The notes beneath the pieces are model-generated. The model made no database searches, had not been told where the DNA came from, and was given only the letters and a program-made list of their open reading frames with translations. Both the position numbers and the translations under genes were made by a program. From Candidatus Dojkabacteria bacterium (GTDB lineage Bacteria > Patescibacteriota > Dojkabacteria > GCA-002793355): a DNA stretch of 35,512 nucleotides. This document shows positions 14,931-23,633 of this stretch, piece by piece. The stretch lies in contig WFZK01000020.1 in NCBI GenBank assembly GCA_015489595.1, positions 1 to 35,512 of the forward strand, written 5' to 3'. Each line of letters begins with the position of its first letter. Position 1 is the stretch's first letter.

Positions 14931-16829
14931 TTATGAGACTGATACCTCTACGGTAATCCTATTGGTCTGAACGGGAACGTACCAAAGATTTCTAGGAATC
15001 CAAGAAGGATCAAACTCCATCTTCGGCTCCTTCTTAAGATATGGAAGCTTCTTTAAGATCTCATACGCCTGCTCCCACTTCTTGCCAGCTATCTTTAGTT
15101 TGATCGCTTCCTTGTCTATCTTAGGAGTTATCTGGCCGCTGGCCTCGATAACTAAGACGGCTGAATTTCTATCTTTGGCGATTTTGATCTGTTTTACCTT
15201 TACCGAAAGATTATTAACCTCAACATCGGTGTCATCTTTTAGCTTAAGCTTTTTCTTGTACTCTTTAATCAACAGATATTCGGCAACTTTGTTTAAGGAA
15301 TCTTGATGGTAATACAAAGCAGAGCTCTTTGTGCTTATCTCTAAGTATGCTTCAGTTGCTTCAGAGCCTATCTTGGGATTAACCTTAGGATCACCATCAA
15401 GCTCGTGCTTTACGGAATCTTTAATAAACACATAGCCGTCTTCTTTGTTAGCATCTTTTAGCTCTTCTTCAGCTTGGGCGAAAAGTGCCTTTTTTAATGA
15501 GTCTACTCCTTTCTTGACATCCTCTTTACCCACAACTGTATATTCGCGCTTAGTGCCTCCTGAAAACGAGGTCTGATTGCTTGCCACAAGCCCGCTGGCA
15601 TTGTCTACTCCGATTGTAAAAGAATGTCCTGCATCTAGATTGTATTCATCCCCATACTTCTCTGCCCTCACTGGCACATCTGCCCCCCCTCCGGCAGGTA
15701 CAGTCACCTCTGAAGTTGACTTAAACTTAAGTCCATTATCACTTGTAAACTCTGTTCCACTTGGAAGAACTACATCCGAGGTAGAACCATTCACTACCCT
15801 GATTGTTCCTGTAGCATAATCTCCTGAGACCACCCTTTGGGTGGCTTTAATCGTAGAGGAGCCTTTTCTGGTTACTTCTGTCTTTATAAGTGGTATCTGC
15901 TTAGCTTCTAGATTAGCAGCGACGTGAGCTACACCTGCCTCCACCTGATCTTTTATTGAAACAGAGGTGCTGGCTACGACCAGCTTTACATAGACTCTAG
16001 GCATGTATTTGTAGTACACATAAGCAGAAGCCCCGCCTATAACACCAACAAGAGTCAAAACTATACCTAAGAATTTTAGGATTTTGCCTATAAATTTATG
16101 GGCTCTTTTGCCGGATCCTAATTTACCTAGAGAAGATTTTCCAATAGGAGGTCCAGGAGGTTTAGAGCCAGAACCAGAGGAAGCACCCCCAGTTGGGAGC
16201 ATGACTCCCGGTGGCTGCGGGCCCCCATCCGGCTGAGCCGGGGCGGGGGCAGGCCGCTGCGCGGCCTGCCCCCGCCCCTTTTTATCACCCGAGGAAACCA
16301 CCTTGGCAAAATCAAGCCCTGTGAGCTTAACCTTGGTGAGCTCCGGCTTACTATGCTGCAATTTTAGAGTTGTCTCTCCCTTTTCTTCAGCTTTAACCCT
16401 CTGCGAAGCCACATCTTGCCCAACTTTAGGCGCAGAAACCGTAGCAGTAGACTCCGTCAGCTTCTGTTTAGGCTCTTGTTTTAAAGTTACCGGGGTTTTT
16501 GACCTGTAATGCGACGCCTGATAAGAAAGTACCTGAACCTTGGCCTGCTGCCAAAGCGAAGCATCTATGCGATCCCTAGAAGTCGTAACAACAAACCCAG
16601 CATCTTTGGCTGTTTTTACATAATTAGGCTTATCAGGGACAACCAAAACAACCTCTTTACCTATCTCTAGAAATTTATCGTGCAGAGTTTTTAAACCTAC
16701 CCTACTGACAAGTAAATCATTCCCCTCAGGAATCTCTAGTATAACCCTGGAAACCTTAGCAGCTTTAACATAGGATAAGACCACATTAATGCTATCTTCA
16801 GGGTCTACCCTGACGATCTTCGCGCTCAT
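14931..16829 (-). CDS. Baseplate-J/gp47-like protein with N-terminal alpha/beta domain, disordered linker and single TM
   Basis: C-terminal part VVLPSGTEFTSDNGLKFKSTSEVTVPAGGGADVPVRAEKYGDEYNLDAGHSFTI resembles baseplate J-like domains; TM at ILKFLGIVLTLVGVIGGASAYVYY; Pro/Gly-rich linker. Confidence 0.6.
   Translation of the reverse strand: MSAKIVRVDPEDSINVVLSYVKAAKVSRVILEIPEGNDLLVSRVGLKTLHDKFLEIGKEVVLVVPDKPNYVKTAKDAGFVVTTSRDRIDASLWQQAKVQVLSYQASHYRSKTPVTLKQEPKQKLTESTATVSAPKVGQDVASQRVKAEEKGETTLKLQHSKPELTKVKLTGLDFAKVVSSGDKKGRGQAAQRPAPAPAQPDGGPQPPGVMLPTGGASSGSGSKPPGPPIGKSSLGKLGSGKRAHKFIGKILKFLGIVLTLVGVIGGASAYVYYKYMPRVYVKLVVASTSVSIKDQVEAGVAHVAANLEAKQIPLIKTEVTRKGSSTIKATQRVVSGDYATGTIRVVNGSTSDVVLPSGTEFTSDNGLKFKSTSEVTVPAGGGADVPVRAEKYGDEYNLDAGHSFTIGVDNASGLVASNQTSFSGGTKREYTVVGKEDVKKGVDSLKKALFAQAEEELKDANKEDGYVFIKDSVKHELDGDPKVNPKIGSEATEAYLEISTKSSALYYHQDSLNKVAEYLLIKEYKKKLKLKDDTDVEVNNLSVKVKQIKIAKDRNSAVLVIEASGQITPKIDKEAIKLKIAGKKWEQAYEILKKLPYLKKEPKMEFDPSWIPRNLWYVPVQTNRITVEVSVS
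16240..16278. repeat. GC-only-arm palindrome inside the CDS, 18-bp perfect stem, 3-nt loop
   Basis: GGGGCGGGGGCAGGCCGC-TGC-GCGGCCTGCCCCCGCCCC followed by TTTTT; encodes the RGQAAQRPAPAP linker on the minus strand. Confidence 0.95.
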
Positions 16830-18263: not shown

Positions 18264-19937
18264 TCAGACCTTCTTAGAAAAGGTCCGCTTCTTACGCAGC
18301 GCCTTTCTACCCTCGCAATCTACCACAGTGATCTCAGGGGTAAGCCCGTATTCGCGTCTGAAGAAACTCCCAGTCTTACGATAAATTAAACGCTTAGTGT
18401 CTTGCTTACCCTTCAAATAAAAAACCTCAGAAAGAGTCTTCTTAAGCTTCTCTGTTGCTTCTGGAACCAAATGCGCGGGTAAAACCCCTTTTGCTACTAC
18501 CTCAAGCTTTTTAGACCTACTGCACCCTACGACCACAACCACATGCCCAAAGCCTGCCATATTGTATCTGGTGGTCACGATATTATCCCGCGTGGATACT
18601 AACTCCGACCCAATTACATAGACAGGATGAGTGCGTATCTTCTTCTCAGGCACCACTCCTTTAGAAGTAAACTTATACACACTCCCCTCAGAGGGGACAA
18701 GAATCTTCCTAGAAGGGATTCCCGCCTCCATTAATAGATTCCTGTGTTGGAAAAGAAAAGAGGTGTAGCCGTGAACAGGAATATAATATTTAGAATTTAA
18801 AAGAATAGCCATCTGCTTGAGCTCCTCCTGGTATGCATGGCCACTTACGTGTACATCCATTAGTCTGCTGTTTATTACAGTAGCGCCAGTCCTGGACAAT
18901 CTATCCATCAACTCCTGAACAGGTACGACATTTGTAGGAATAACCGAAGAAGACATAATTATAGTATCTGTACTTTTGAGCTTAATATAGGCATGCTCAC
19001 CTCGGGCCATCCGGGTTAGGGCTGCCATATGCTCCCCTTGGCTCCCTGTAGCTATAATAACTACCTGATTATCAGGATATTTATCCACGTCCTTTACATG
19101 TATGATCAGGTCCTTCTGAGGCATCAAATATCCTATCCGCATTGCTATCTTTACATTGGTTTCAAGACTTCTTCCTGTAAAAGCAACCTTCTTATTAAGC
19201 TTTTTGGCTATCTCCATGATTCCGATCAAGCGAGACACGAGGGAAGAAAACATCCCAATGATCACTCGTCCCTTAGCATTAGCTAAAATGCTTTCTAGCA
19301 CGCCTATAATTGAAGTCTCTGACTTGGAGTATCCAGCTTCATACACATTAGTAGAATCTAGCAGGCTCACGAGAACTCCCTGTAAAGCCCACTTTTCTAA
19401 AATGTCAGTATCAGACGGAGGCTCGTTAATCGGGGTGGCATCAAACTTAAAATCCCCTGTGTATACGATCTTGCCAAAAGGAGAGTCAACTGCAACTGCA
19501 AAACACTGGGGGATGCTGTGGGTCACATGAGCAAAGTGGACTCTAAACGGTCCAATATTGACTATATCTCCGCTGTGAACCTTAGTTAATTTTGCCTGCT
19601 TGTGTTTTTTTACCTCCCTTAATTTCTCCTTGATGAACTCGATAGCAAACCTACTTCCATAGATAGGCGGGTTACCCAGCTTATCTATAACATAAGGCAA
19701 ACCTCCCACATGATCCATGTGAGCGTGTGTGATCACTATCCCTGCGATTTTTCTTCTATTGTGCTCAAGCCAAGAAACATCAGGTAGTATGCCATTTATG
19801 TTAAAAACACCTACGTCAGGGAACCCAATGCCGTAATCAATCACCAACAATTTGCCATCTTTTTCAACCACATAGCTGTTTCTTCCGATGGTAGTAACCC
19901 CGGAAAGGGTGATTACTCTTACATCCTTACTCATCAT
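18264..19937 (-). CDS. rnj: Ribonuclease J
   Basis: MBL/beta-CASP: VITHAHMDHVGGLPYVIDKL, VYTGDFKFD, DVHVSGHAYQEELKQM, YYIPVHGYTSFL. Confidence 0.95.
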   Translation of the reverse strand: MMSKDVRVITLSGVTTIGRNSYVVEKDGKLLVIDYGIGFPDVGVFNINGILPDVSWLEHNRRKIAGIVITHAHMDHVGGLPYVIDKLGNPPIYGSRFAIEFIKEKLREVKKHKQAKLTKVHSGDIVNIGPFRVHFAHVTHSIPQCFAVAVDSPFGKIVYTGDFKFDATPINEPPSDTDILEKWALQGVLVSLLDSTNVYEAGYSKSETSIIGVLESILANAKGRVIIGMFSSLVSRLIGIMEIAKKLNKKVAFTGRSLETNVKIAMRIGYLMPQKDLIIHVKDVDKYPDNQVVIIATGSQGEHMAALTRMARGEHAYIKLKSTDTIIMSSSVIPTNVVPVQELMDRLSRTGATVINSRLMDVHVSGHAYQEELKQMAILLNSKYYIPVHGYTSFLFQHRNLLMEAGIPSRKILVPSEGSVYKFTSKGVVPEKKIRTHPVYVIGSELVSTRDNIVTTRYNMAGFGHVVVVVGCSRSKKLEVVAKGVLPAHLVPEATEKLKKTLSEVFYLKGKQDTKRLIYRKTGSFFRREYGLTPEITVVDCEGRKALRKKRTFSKKV

Positions 19938-21019
19938 CCTAAAACTCCCATATCATCAGGCAGATATTTTTTCACATTGTCGGGGGTAATCACAACCTTA
20001 TCTACCCCACCCGTGAGTATATCATACGCCACCTGTCTTGCCAGATTAGCAAGAGTACGCTCAAGCTGTCGTATCCCAGCGTCATAGCCCATAGGTCGAA
20101 CAATAAGAGGCCAAGCCTGGTCCGTAATTACAAGCTGCTCACGCTTAAGGCCTGTCTCCTTTAAGATCCTAGGCAGTAGATAATCCTTGCCTATCTTAAT
20201 CTTCTCTTCATCTGTATAGCTTGTAAATCTGATAATTTCTAACCTATCAAGCAAAGCTGCAGTGAGTGTCCCCAGAGTATTCGCAGTTGTTATAAAAAAG
20301 ACTTTGGAAAGATCGATTGGATAATCAATGTATCTATCTACAAAACTAGAATTTTGTGAAGGATCTAGAATCTCTAACAAAGCTGCCTGAATGTCGCGGT
20401 TTAGGGCCTTATCACCGCTGGCCTTATCTATCTCATCGAGCAATATCACCGGATTCATTGATCCTGCTCTAACCAGTGCTTTTACAATAACACCAGGCTC
20501 AGCATCTGGATAAGTTCGCGGCTTGCCTCTAAGTTGAAGAATGTCTCCAAAGGCTGCCATTGAGATCTTTTGAAAGCTTCTTCCTAGAGCACGGGCAATA
20601 GACATAGCAATTGTGGTCTTCCCTAGCCCTTGCAGCCCTACAAAGCAGAGTACAGGAAATCTCTCTACAACAGGCCCCTGTTTTTGCTGCTTTTCATTCA
20701 TTGATCGGAGCTTAATAGTAGCTATGTAGGTTAAGATCTTGCGCTTTACCTTCTCAAGCCCATAGTGAGTTCGATTCAGCTCGTTCTTAACAGTTTCAAT
20801 GTCTAAATTATCAGGGGTATACTTTCCCCAAGGGATCCTTACTATCCAATCTATGTATTTTGAGACTATCTCATATTCTGTAGAGTAAACTCCGCGCTTT
20901 GCAGCGTTATACAAACGTACAAGCATTTTGTACGCCTCTGCCTTCAAGGGCTTAGGAACGTTCGAATTCTCTAGTTTGTTAAACAGATCCTTAATATCTG
21001 CAAACTCATCCAACTGCAT
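19934..21019 (-). CDS. Lon-type AAA+ ATPase lacking the LAN N-domain and S16 protease domain
   Basis: YIDWIVRIPWGKYTPDNLDIETVKNELNRTHYGLEKVKRKIL, Walker A GLQGLGKTT, Walker B VILLDEIDK, TANTLGTLTAALLDRLEIIRFTSYTDEEK are Lon-specific; the ORF ends right after the AAA+ lid. Confidence 0.9.
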   Translation of the reverse strand: MQLDEFADIKDLFNKLENSNVPKPLKAEAYKMLVRLYNAAKRGVYSTEYEIVSKYIDWIVRIPWGKYTPDNLDIETVKNELNRTHYGLEKVKRKILTYIATIKLRSMNEKQQKQGPVVERFPVLCFVGLQGLGKTTIAMSIARALGRSFQKISMAAFGDILQLRGKPRTYPDAEPGVIVKALVRAGSMNPVILLDEIDKASGDKALNRDIQAALLEILDPSQNSSFVDRYIDYPIDLSKVFFITTANTLGTLTAALLDRLEIIRFTSYTDEEKIKIGKDYLLPRILKETGLKREQLVITDQAWPLIVRPMGYDAGIRQLERTLANLARQVAYDILTGGVDKVVITPDNVKKYLPDDMGVLG

Positions 21020-21032
21020 ATTCTATTATCCT

Positions 21033-23192
21033 TCAGACTTGTTTCATAGACAACCTTAATCTACCCTTCTCGTCTATCTCAATTATCTTAGCCCTCACAC
21101 GCTGACCTATCTTTAGCACTGTATGAATATCTTTTATGTACATGTCGGAGATCTCAGAGATATGAATCATGCCTAAGGTATCTGTCCCGTCAAGTAACTT
21201 CACAATAGCGCCAAATGGCTTGAGGTCTACCACTTCAACATCATATACTTCACCTATTTTATAGGTCTTTTTAGCAGGCTTTAATTTATGTTCTGTCTCC
21301 AATGCGTCCTTTATTAACTCTTTAGCTTTTTCTAAGCTAGCTTTATTCACAGCGGTGATTATTACTTCTCCGTTCTCCTCGATATAGATCTCAGCGCCTG
21401 ACTCTTTCATGATCTCCTTTATTATCTTGCCCCCTGGACCGATTAATCTTCCGATATCATCTGGATCTATCTTTATCTTAGCCACCCCCGGAGCATACGG
21501 AGAAAGCTCTGGCCTTGGCTCAGGGATCACCTGCTTCATTTTTTCTAAGATAAACAAACGGGCCTTCTTGGCAGCCTCAAGAGCCTGATCAAATACCTCT
21601 ACGGGCAGAACTCCTTTCTTCTGATCCATCTGAATGGCTGTAATCCCATCTTCTGTGCCTGCTACCTTAAAATCCATCTCACCGTAGAAATCTTCTTGTT
21701 CCTGAATGTCTGTTAAAAGCTTAAATTCTCCGGTTTCATCATCCATTATGACGCCGATGCTTATGCCTGCTACTGGCTTCTTTATCGGAACTCCAGCATC
21801 CATTAAAGCCAAGGAGCTTCCACAGGTTGATGCCATTGAGGTAGATCCCCCTGAACCCATTACCTCGCTTACGACCCTTATTGTATAAGGGAACTCGTCT
21901 TTAGAAGGCAACACAGCTAGTAAAGCTTTTTCAGCTAAGGCTCCATGACCTACCTCCCTACGGCCAGGATAGTATCTGACCCTTCCTGGTTCTCCATAAG
22001 CATAAGGAGGAGCGTAGTATTCATGCATGTATCTTTTCTCCTCGTCTCCGCTTAACTCCTCAAGCTGGAGCTGCTTCTGAAGGGAATCAAGAGTCACAAC
22101 ACTTAAAACCTGAGTTGGACCACGCTTGAAATTGGCACTTCCGTGAGCTCGAGGCAGAAGCCCCACCTCGATCTCAAGGGGTCTTATCTCATCGAAATCT
22201 CGGCCGTCTATTCTCCTATTCTCCTCAAGCACAGACTTGCGGACGTATTTTTTAAATATCTTTGCGATTGCTCTTTTTAGCAAAGCTTCGAATTCTGAGG
22301 TATCCTCTTCTTGCTCGGCTTGCTCACTTACCATCTCTTCTTTAATAGTCTCCTCTAGCTCCTCAAGCTGTTTTACCCGCTCTTCTTTATCTGGATTCGA
22401 TAACGCCTCATAAAGTCTCTTACCGTATCTTTCTTCTAGCTTTTCTATTAGATCAACGGGGACTACCACCCTGGTGCCTTCTTGTTTCTCAACACCAAAT
22501 TCTTTAGTAAACTCTTCCTGGGCATCAAACCAGACCTTAGCTTTATCAATAGCAAAACGCATTGCATCCTTGACTATCTTTTCCGGAATCTCACGCATCA
22601 CTGCGTCGAACATAACTATTCCTTTAGGCTCTACTCCTAGAAACAGATTCATAGCCTCTTTATCTATAACATTTTCACCTTCAGCATCCCAAAGGGGGAC
22701 GGATTTATTATTAATGTAAAGCTCACCGTTCTCACCTATAGAAACTCGTACACCTGCTAATGGACCATCAAACTCTATGCTTGAGGCCATCAAGGCAGCC
22801 ACAGTGGTATTAAAGCCTAGTATCAGCGGATCAAATTCAGGATCATAAGAGAGTACATTGACAAAGATTTGAACTGTATCTACCAGACCTTCTGGAAACC
22901 TGGGTCTTATGGCTCTATCAATAATTCTGGCTTTAAGAATAGCACTGTCTGCAGGATGTCCTTCTCTTTTTACATAGGGAGAAGCAGCGATTTTCCCTGC
23001 TGCATACAGCCTCTCAAGATATTCAACCTGAAGTGGGAAAAAGTCAAGAGTTTTGTCCCCTTCACCTCTTAGAACAGAAACATTAACAGCCGTACCTCCC
23101 CATACAGCAAAGATTGAACTATCAGAAAGGGCGCTAAACTTTTTGTAGAACCATTTGACAGGTTGTCCACCTACCTTAAACGTATATTCCAT
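21033..23192 (-). CDS. pnp: Polynucleotide phosphorylase
   Basis: 719 aa with RNase PH repeats, KH (IGRLIGPGGKIIKEI) and S1 domain; adjacent to rpsO. Confidence 0.98.
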   Translation of the reverse strand: MEYTFKVGGQPVKWFYKKFSALSDSSIFAVWGGTAVNVSVLRGEGDKTLDFFPLQVEYLERLYAAGKIAASPYVKREGHPADSAILKARIIDRAIRPRFPEGLVDTVQIFVNVLSYDPEFDPLILGFNTTVAALMASSIEFDGPLAGVRVSIGENGELYINNKSVPLWDAEGENVIDKEAMNLFLGVEPKGIVMFDAVMREIPEKIVKDAMRFAIDKAKVWFDAQEEFTKEFGVEKQEGTRVVVPVDLIEKLEERYGKRLYEALSNPDKEERVKQLEELEETIKEEMVSEQAEQEEDTSEFEALLKRAIAKIFKKYVRKSVLEENRRIDGRDFDEIRPLEIEVGLLPRAHGSANFKRGPTQVLSVVTLDSLQKQLQLEELSGDEEKRYMHEYYAPPYAYGEPGRVRYYPGRREVGHGALAEKALLAVLPSKDEFPYTIRVVSEVMGSGGSTSMASTCGSSLALMDAGVPIKKPVAGISIGVIMDDETGEFKLLTDIQEQEDFYGEMDFKVAGTEDGITAIQMDQKKGVLPVEVFDQALEAAKKARLFILEKMKQVIPEPRPELSPYAPGVAKIKIDPDDIGRLIGPGGKIIKEIMKESGAEIYIEENGEVIITAVNKASLEKAKELIKDALETEHKLKPAKKTYKIGEVYDVEVVDLKPFGAIVKLLDGTDTLGMIHISEISDMYIKDIHTVLKIGQRVRAKIIEIDEKGRLRLSMKQV

Positions 23193-23363: not shown

Positions 23364-23633
23364 TTATTTCCTTAAGCCGAGCTTCTTAATAAGGCTCTGA
23401 TACCTTTTCGCATCAAGCCTCCTTAAATAATCAAGAAGCCGCTTACGCCTACTGACGAGCTTGATAAATCCGCGCTTGGAATGAAAATCATGAGGATGCT
23501 TTTTAAAGTGCTCGGCAAGGGCATTAATTCTGTATGTGAGTAAGGCGATCTGAACCTCAGGAGACCCTGTATCGCCTTCGTGCCGGGCAAACTCCTCAAT
23601 GATCTTCTTTTTTTGTTCGGTAGTAAGCGACAT
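23364..23633 (-). CDS. rpsO: 30S ribosomal protein S15
   Basis: 89 aa, [53 protein letters not shown]. Confidence 0.98.

Follow-up and report, generated by a model that had tools for sequence, protein, structure and literature searches.

A stand-alone Lon-type ATPase between pnp and rnj

The window (the whole 35,512-nucleotide stretch of Candidatus Dojkabacteria DNA analyzed here) carries on its minus strand the gene for a Lon-type AAA+ ATPase, referred to below as the motor, between the genes for polynucleotide phosphorylase and ribonuclease J. The open reading frame has an ATG start, is intact, and lies exactly where an earlier sequence-only reading had placed it. Residue counts given here and below are from 91 motors and 20 full Lons; a full Lon cut by a contig end (L044) is not among the motors.

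23364..23633 (-): rpsO, ribosomal protein S15, opening the conserved rpsO-pnp-motor-rnj order
21033..23192 (-): pnp, polynucleotide phosphorylase (Pfam), upstream, with a 13-nt gap to the motor
19934..21019 (-): stand-alone Lon-type AAA+ ATPase, 361 aa (open reading frame, Pfam, TIGR00763, phmmer, structure model)
Motor residues 1–110 (-): three-helix bundle/linker
Motor residues 119–266 (-): AAA core
20612..20638 (-): Walker A, GLQGLGKTT, residues 128–136 (GxxGxGKT in 91/91 motors)
20492..20518 (-): pore loop 1 equivalent, RTYPDAEPG, residues 168–176, including Tyr170 and Glu174
20432..20437 (-): Walker B, Asp195-Glu196 (91/91 motors)
20393..20422 (-): pore loop 2 equivalent, residues 200–209 (aromatic of full Lon lost in 90/91 motors)
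20243..20245 (-): arginine finger, Arg259 (91/91 motors)
Motor residues 267–352 (-): lid
20069..20098 (-): family signature RPxG[FY]D, residues 308–313, running into sensor 2 Arg317 (91/91 motors); Lon has a YTREAG-type sequence there
Motor residues 353–361 (-): short tail
18264..19937 (-): rnj, ribonuclease J (Pfam), downstream, sharing 4 nt with the end of the motor gene

The 13-nt gap between pnp and the motor, together with the 4-nt overlap between the motor and rnj, makes co-translation probable. Elsewhere in the window, an FtsA/PilM-like gene lies beside one for a 632-aa protein (14931–16829, minus strand), part of which resembles baseplate J (Pfam Baseplate_J, 40.7 bits); this pair is kept in several Dojkabacteria.

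The window protein matches the Pfam profiles AAA (71 bits) and Lon_lid (43 bits), both over cut-off and both also found in 24/24 aligned family members; neither LON_substr_bdg (LAN) nor Lon_C (S16) was matched. The endopeptidase La profile TIGR00763 aligned over positions 253–570 of 795 only, and its score of 328 bits falls far short of the 608-bit cut-off. The best solved relatives in phmmer searches are LonA AAA+ modules (3m6a, E=9e-78), and an AlphaFold model built from an alignment of 24 relatives (mean pLDDT 89.6) has LONP1/LonA AAA+ modules as its closest structures (query TM ~0.8). The window protein is the counterpart of the LonA three-helix bundle, AAA+ core and lid, encoded as a gene of its own. 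The sequence-only reading had described just this arrangement, a Lon helical region and complete AAA+ module with lid on a chain free of LAN and S16, and the profile and structure comparisons agree with it on each point.

Search for a detached protease

The same reading had named a separate S16 protein, or a protease domain in a shifted downstream frame, as things to look for. Searching the window genome (825 kb, 47 contigs, 93.5% complete) with Lon_C gave no match, whereas the same search was positive in 13/14 control genomes. No frame-shifted protease domain adjoins the motor in the window, where the neighbors are RNase J (the downstream frame, by Pfam) and PNPase. Weak Lon_C matches were obtained in 19/39 Dojkabacteria genomes, in open reading frames of ~440–540 aa, a size that fits RadA/ComM; the four that were read as sequence proved to be ComM (L052, L054) and RadA (L060, L064). 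A separate S16 domain was rejected on these grounds. The LAN profile (LON_substr_bdg) was likewise absent, both from the window genome and from all 39 Dojkabacteria genomes searched.

One competing idea is that the motor is one half of a two-part protease, docking on a peptidase made as its own chain, for example ClpP, feeding it and replacing Lon. ClpP is found in nearly all sampled Dojkabacteria, and the C-terminal end of the motor is on the side that carries the protease in Lon. The motors also share a fixed end point, often Tyr or Trp, with VYS-type tails in some Dojkabacteria; these VYS-like termini led us to consider an HslV/proteasome-type partner, which was rejected because that peptidase (PF00227) occurs in 0/39 Dojkabacteria genomes and the tail is not conserved across the family. 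Against ClpP as the partner, ClpC-like ATPases that would serve it are apparently present (long open reading frames with weak AAA matches), many motor carriers also have an ordinary Lon, and the residues with which Lon grips its substrate are lost (see below). A two-part protease is therefore very improbable in our estimation. A second motor paralogue with a ~75-residue Pro/Gln/Ser-rich C-terminal tail was observed in three genomes of Dojkabacteria family f2 (L115, L116 and L117; genomes G008, G015 and G021).

The motor is a widespread and constrained family

The motor was found in 37/39 sampled Dojkabacteria, in 36 of them intact, while the other two genomes match only distantly related AAA proteins. 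In a larger set of 380 Patescibacteria genomes, 103 carry the motor at ≥410 bits, a threshold that separates it from full-length Lons (frames of ~780–850 aa), which score at most 387 bits. Some 70 of these carriers lie outside Dojkabacteria; those named are Microgenomates, with copies of 347–371 aa in Shapirobacteria and Gottesmanbacteria, within a family length range of ~340–450 aa. At least 30 of the 380 genomes hold a motor and a full Lon together. Outside Patescibacteria, a pattern-limited contig scan returned only full-length Lon.

A branch with 100/100 support separates all motors from the full Lons in an unrooted tree (40 motors, 20 full Lons), in which the Lons of motor-carrying genomes group with other bacterial Lons; the comparison with full Lon that the sequence-only reading had proposed thus places the motors in one clade. 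Constraint on the gene is strong. Comparison of the window with a 78%-identical relative gave dN values of 0.19 (motor), 0.20 (rpsO), 0.22 (pnp) and 0.29 (rnj), synonymous sites being saturated, so that the motor evolves about as slowly as rpsO and more slowly than rnj, which rules out decay.

Two observations favor the notion that the gene is an assembly artefact, a pseudogene or a Lon that has decayed or been truncated: the motor is shorter than Lon, and one copy, that of KatS3mg085 (G019; AP024679.1, L051 4983–6073, and L118), is spread over three frames that overlap, in a record whose title calls it a complete genome. That copy reflects either frameshift errors or a young pseudogene. Intact frames with the same ends in ~100 genomes, invariant catalytic residues and a clade of their own, in addition to the low dN, leave this explanation with next to no probability. 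Taken together, the sequence comparisons indicate that the motors are an ancient, strongly conserved, Lon-derived family that forms a clade separate from true Lon. Two genomes of family f30 (L245 in G092 and L208 in G075) have a more divergent motor of 348–349 aa, and both also have a full-length Lon.

A viral origin was considered and rejected, since IMG/VR holds no close copy and yielded a single partial AAA match at 30% identity. Membership of an anti-phage defense family is not supported either. A PADLOC match to the anti-phage protein DolB is weak (36.9 bits), and the motor's neighbors are housekeeping genes.

An intact ATPase with an altered pore

Every residue expected of a working ATPase is retained: the Walker A Lys-Thr, Walker B Asp-Glu, sensor 1 Asn, arginine finger and sensor 2 Arg are invariant in 91/91 motors. 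Loss of these residues, which the sequence-only reading had named as evidence against itself, was not observed in any of them. Retention of the arginine finger (Arg259) implies that subunits come together and share ATP sites.

The pore-facing loops are a different matter. In human LONP1, both pore-loop aromatics touch the substrate, and mutating either lowers degradation (PMC8163871). The pore-loop-1 aromatic is Tyr in 20/20 full Lons; among the motors, 8/91 have Tyr and 13/91 Phe, the other 70 having Asn, His, Arg, Glu, Ser and other residues. The following residue, Val or Ile in 20/20 full Lons, is mostly Pro in motors. At pore loop 2 an aromatic is present in 1/91 motors as compared to 20/20 full Lons, a position at which Yersinia pestis Lon has Met (PMC8163871). 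Other positions have become newly conserved in motors, namely Glu174 (89/91), Pro309 (87/91) and Gly311 (89/91). The window protein reads RTYPDAEPG against RTY[IV]GA[LM]PG in Lon; its Tyr170 is retained and is followed by Pro-Asp. The pore region had been described as drifted in the sequence-only reading, and this is borne out, with the qualification that the window copy keeps the Tyr that most of the family lacks.

Because these aromatics are mostly lost across the 91 motors, Lon-style threading is unlikely for the family, and we infer that the motors probably do not thread polypeptides as Lon does. The principal competing explanation is a general unfoldase or disaggregase working without a protease, in the manner of ClpB or a lone ClpX, in which a polypeptide is threaded through the ring and then released. 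It is in line with Lon AAA+ modules being protein translocases, with the full retention of the motor's ATPase residues, and with the structural relationship between LonA and ClpB modules (PMC6722904). The aromatic at position 170 of the window protein, with Tyr or Phe there in 21/91 motors, speaks for it as well, and some grip may remain in these proteins. The absence of the pore-loop-1 aromatic in 70/91 motors, the Pro that mostly takes the place of the next Val/Ile, the loss of the pore-loop-2 aromatic in 90/91 and the missing LAN substrate-binding domain all argue the other way. We regard a threading unfoldase as unlikely, albeit with an appreciable chance of being correct.

The sequence-only reading had summed up the protein as a Lon motor repurposed as an "unfoldase/remodeller". 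Complete ATPase residues and conservation over a large clade support repurposing rather than decay. As to the rest of that label, the lost pore aromatics count against the unfoldase half, and for the family a "remodeller" appears better supported than a "threading unfoldase".

Gene neighborhood of the motor

The rpsO-pnp-motor-rnj order of the window is shared by other members of Dojkabacteria family f1. Among 56 loci from outside Dojkabacteria, pnp and rnj are both within three genes of the motor on the same strand in 34, and at least one of the two is in 48. Over a longer stretch the genes run infB-rpsO-pnp-motor-(family-4 uracil-DNA glycosylase)-rnj-ftsK. In 22 loci the uracil-DNA glycosylase gene comes directly after the motor, and this holds also where pnp or rnj is not adjacent; many of these loci are outside Dojkabacteria, and others belong to Dojkabacteria family f4 (e.g., L162 and L100). 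The divergent motor of family f30 occupies the same slot, downstream of pnp and a zinc-ribbon gene, with rnj-ftsK next in L245. In most other Dojkabacteria families the motor is sited elsewhere, for example after yidC-jag-rplY.

The rpsO-pnp-motor-(uracil-DNA glycosylase)-rnj-ftsK setting points to a possible role in RNA decay or translation. Adjacent pnp and rnj are also found in a good part of the Patescibacteria that have no motor, which means that the neighborhood may be inherited gene order and not a sign of function. A strict dependence of the motor on pnp is contradicted by one genome (G383), in which the locus reads infB-rpsO-zinc ribbon-motor-uracil-DNA glycosylase-rnj-ftsK (L244, on G383:C17): pnp is missing from its usual place and was not found elsewhere in the genome, and the motor is retained. 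The two Dojkabacteria that have no motor (G003 and G014) also have no pnp (2/2, p=0.0017). In both of these single-contig assemblies rpsO was undetected too, as was RNase J in G003; since rpsO is absent as well, the co-loss is best explained by a block that is missing (unassembled) or deleted, and we set it aside as functional evidence.

The same neighborhood invites a further explanation, that the motor acts on DNA or RNA directly, either by translocating nucleic acid or by binding it as a regulator. PNPase, RNase J and S15, its operon neighbors, act on RNA; a family-4 uracil-DNA glycosylase gene adjoins it in 22 loci; and nucleic-acid binding is known for Lon proteases. Profile searches of the protein gave no nucleic-acid-binding domain, however, and the neighborhoods vary among Dojkabacteria families. 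We consider direct action on nucleic acid quite improbable.

Proposed function and significance

The reading we favor, tentatively and at a little less than an even chance, is that the motor is a separate, Lon-derived ATPase that serves as a remodeling or loading partner, does not thread its clients, and would find the likeliest of these among the RNA-decay or ribosome assemblies encoded in its operon. The analysis establishes the identity of the motor, its lack of protease and LAN, its complete ATPase residues, its altered pore, its conservation as one clade and its operon; its hexameric state, ATPase activity and mode of remodeling are what we infer. The motor would most likely assemble as an open or closed homo-hexamer with ATP sites between subunits. 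With a pore that has no aromatic grip, it probably would not thread or unfold chains into a protease; its ATP cycles would more likely power the reshaping or loading of a partner complex, through local pulls or through opening and closing of the ring. The most speculative step concerns the clients, which may be the protein–RNA assemblies of the operon, that is, ribosomal particles or the decay machinery of PNPase and RNase J; this choice is a guess from gene order.

A bolder proposal, which we hold to be distinctly unlikely, is that the motors are an undescribed class of AAA+ protein, a Lon motor minus protease, substrate domain and polypeptide grip. Across much of the Patescibacteria it would use ATP to remodel an RNA-decay complex that consists of PNPase and RNase J or is linked to the ribosome, and would thus hold the place that an RNA helicase has in other bacteria.

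The open-access papers searched (on Lon in Dojkabacteria and the Candidate Phyla Radiation, on Lon lacking its protease domain, and on RNase J and PNPase in Patescibacteria) contain no description of a protease-free Lon motor family. The fold and the parent Lon family are already known; what would be new is a conserved, protease-free gene family that coexists with Lon. A motor-only family this deep and widespread indicates that the Lon motor can live alone, and its combination of intact ATPase and changed pore is a natural experiment on the role of the pore loops. Should the operon link to PNPase and RNase J be functional, the motor would be an unrecognized ATP-driven part of RNA turnover in Patescibacteria, which are among the largest and least studied bacterial groups. 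The annotation of motor genes as "Lon protease" is wrong.

Comparison with known systems

Lon is the textbook case of a motor and a protease on one chain. Like the LonA protease (MEROPS S16, TIGR00763), the motor has the three-helix bundle, AAA+ core and lid in the same fold; it is 39–43% identical to the AAA+ region of the full Lons found here, and all ATP-binding and hydrolysis residues are common to both. Unlike LonA, it has neither LAN nor the S16 Ser-Lys domain, its pore loops 1 and 2 are changed, it scores under the endopeptidase La cut-off, and it forms a separate clade.

The nearest match in extent is EcLon(235–584), the AAA+ fragment of E. coli Lon, which crystallized as an open helical hexamer (PDB 6n2i; PMC6722904). 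The motor covers almost exactly the same stretch of Lon, with the same start and end, but the fragment is a laboratory truncation and not a gene, and its pore loops are those of normal Lon. ClpB, ClpX and other protease-free AAA+ unfoldases resemble the motor in lacking a protease domain of their own; they differ from it in belonging to other AAA+ clades, in their accessory domains and in their pore loops, and searches show only weak similarity. ComM/YifB and RadA, S16-fold relatives, combine an ATPase with a Lon-related fold as the motor does, but they keep an S16-like domain, have a different ATPase, and share no kinship with the motor.
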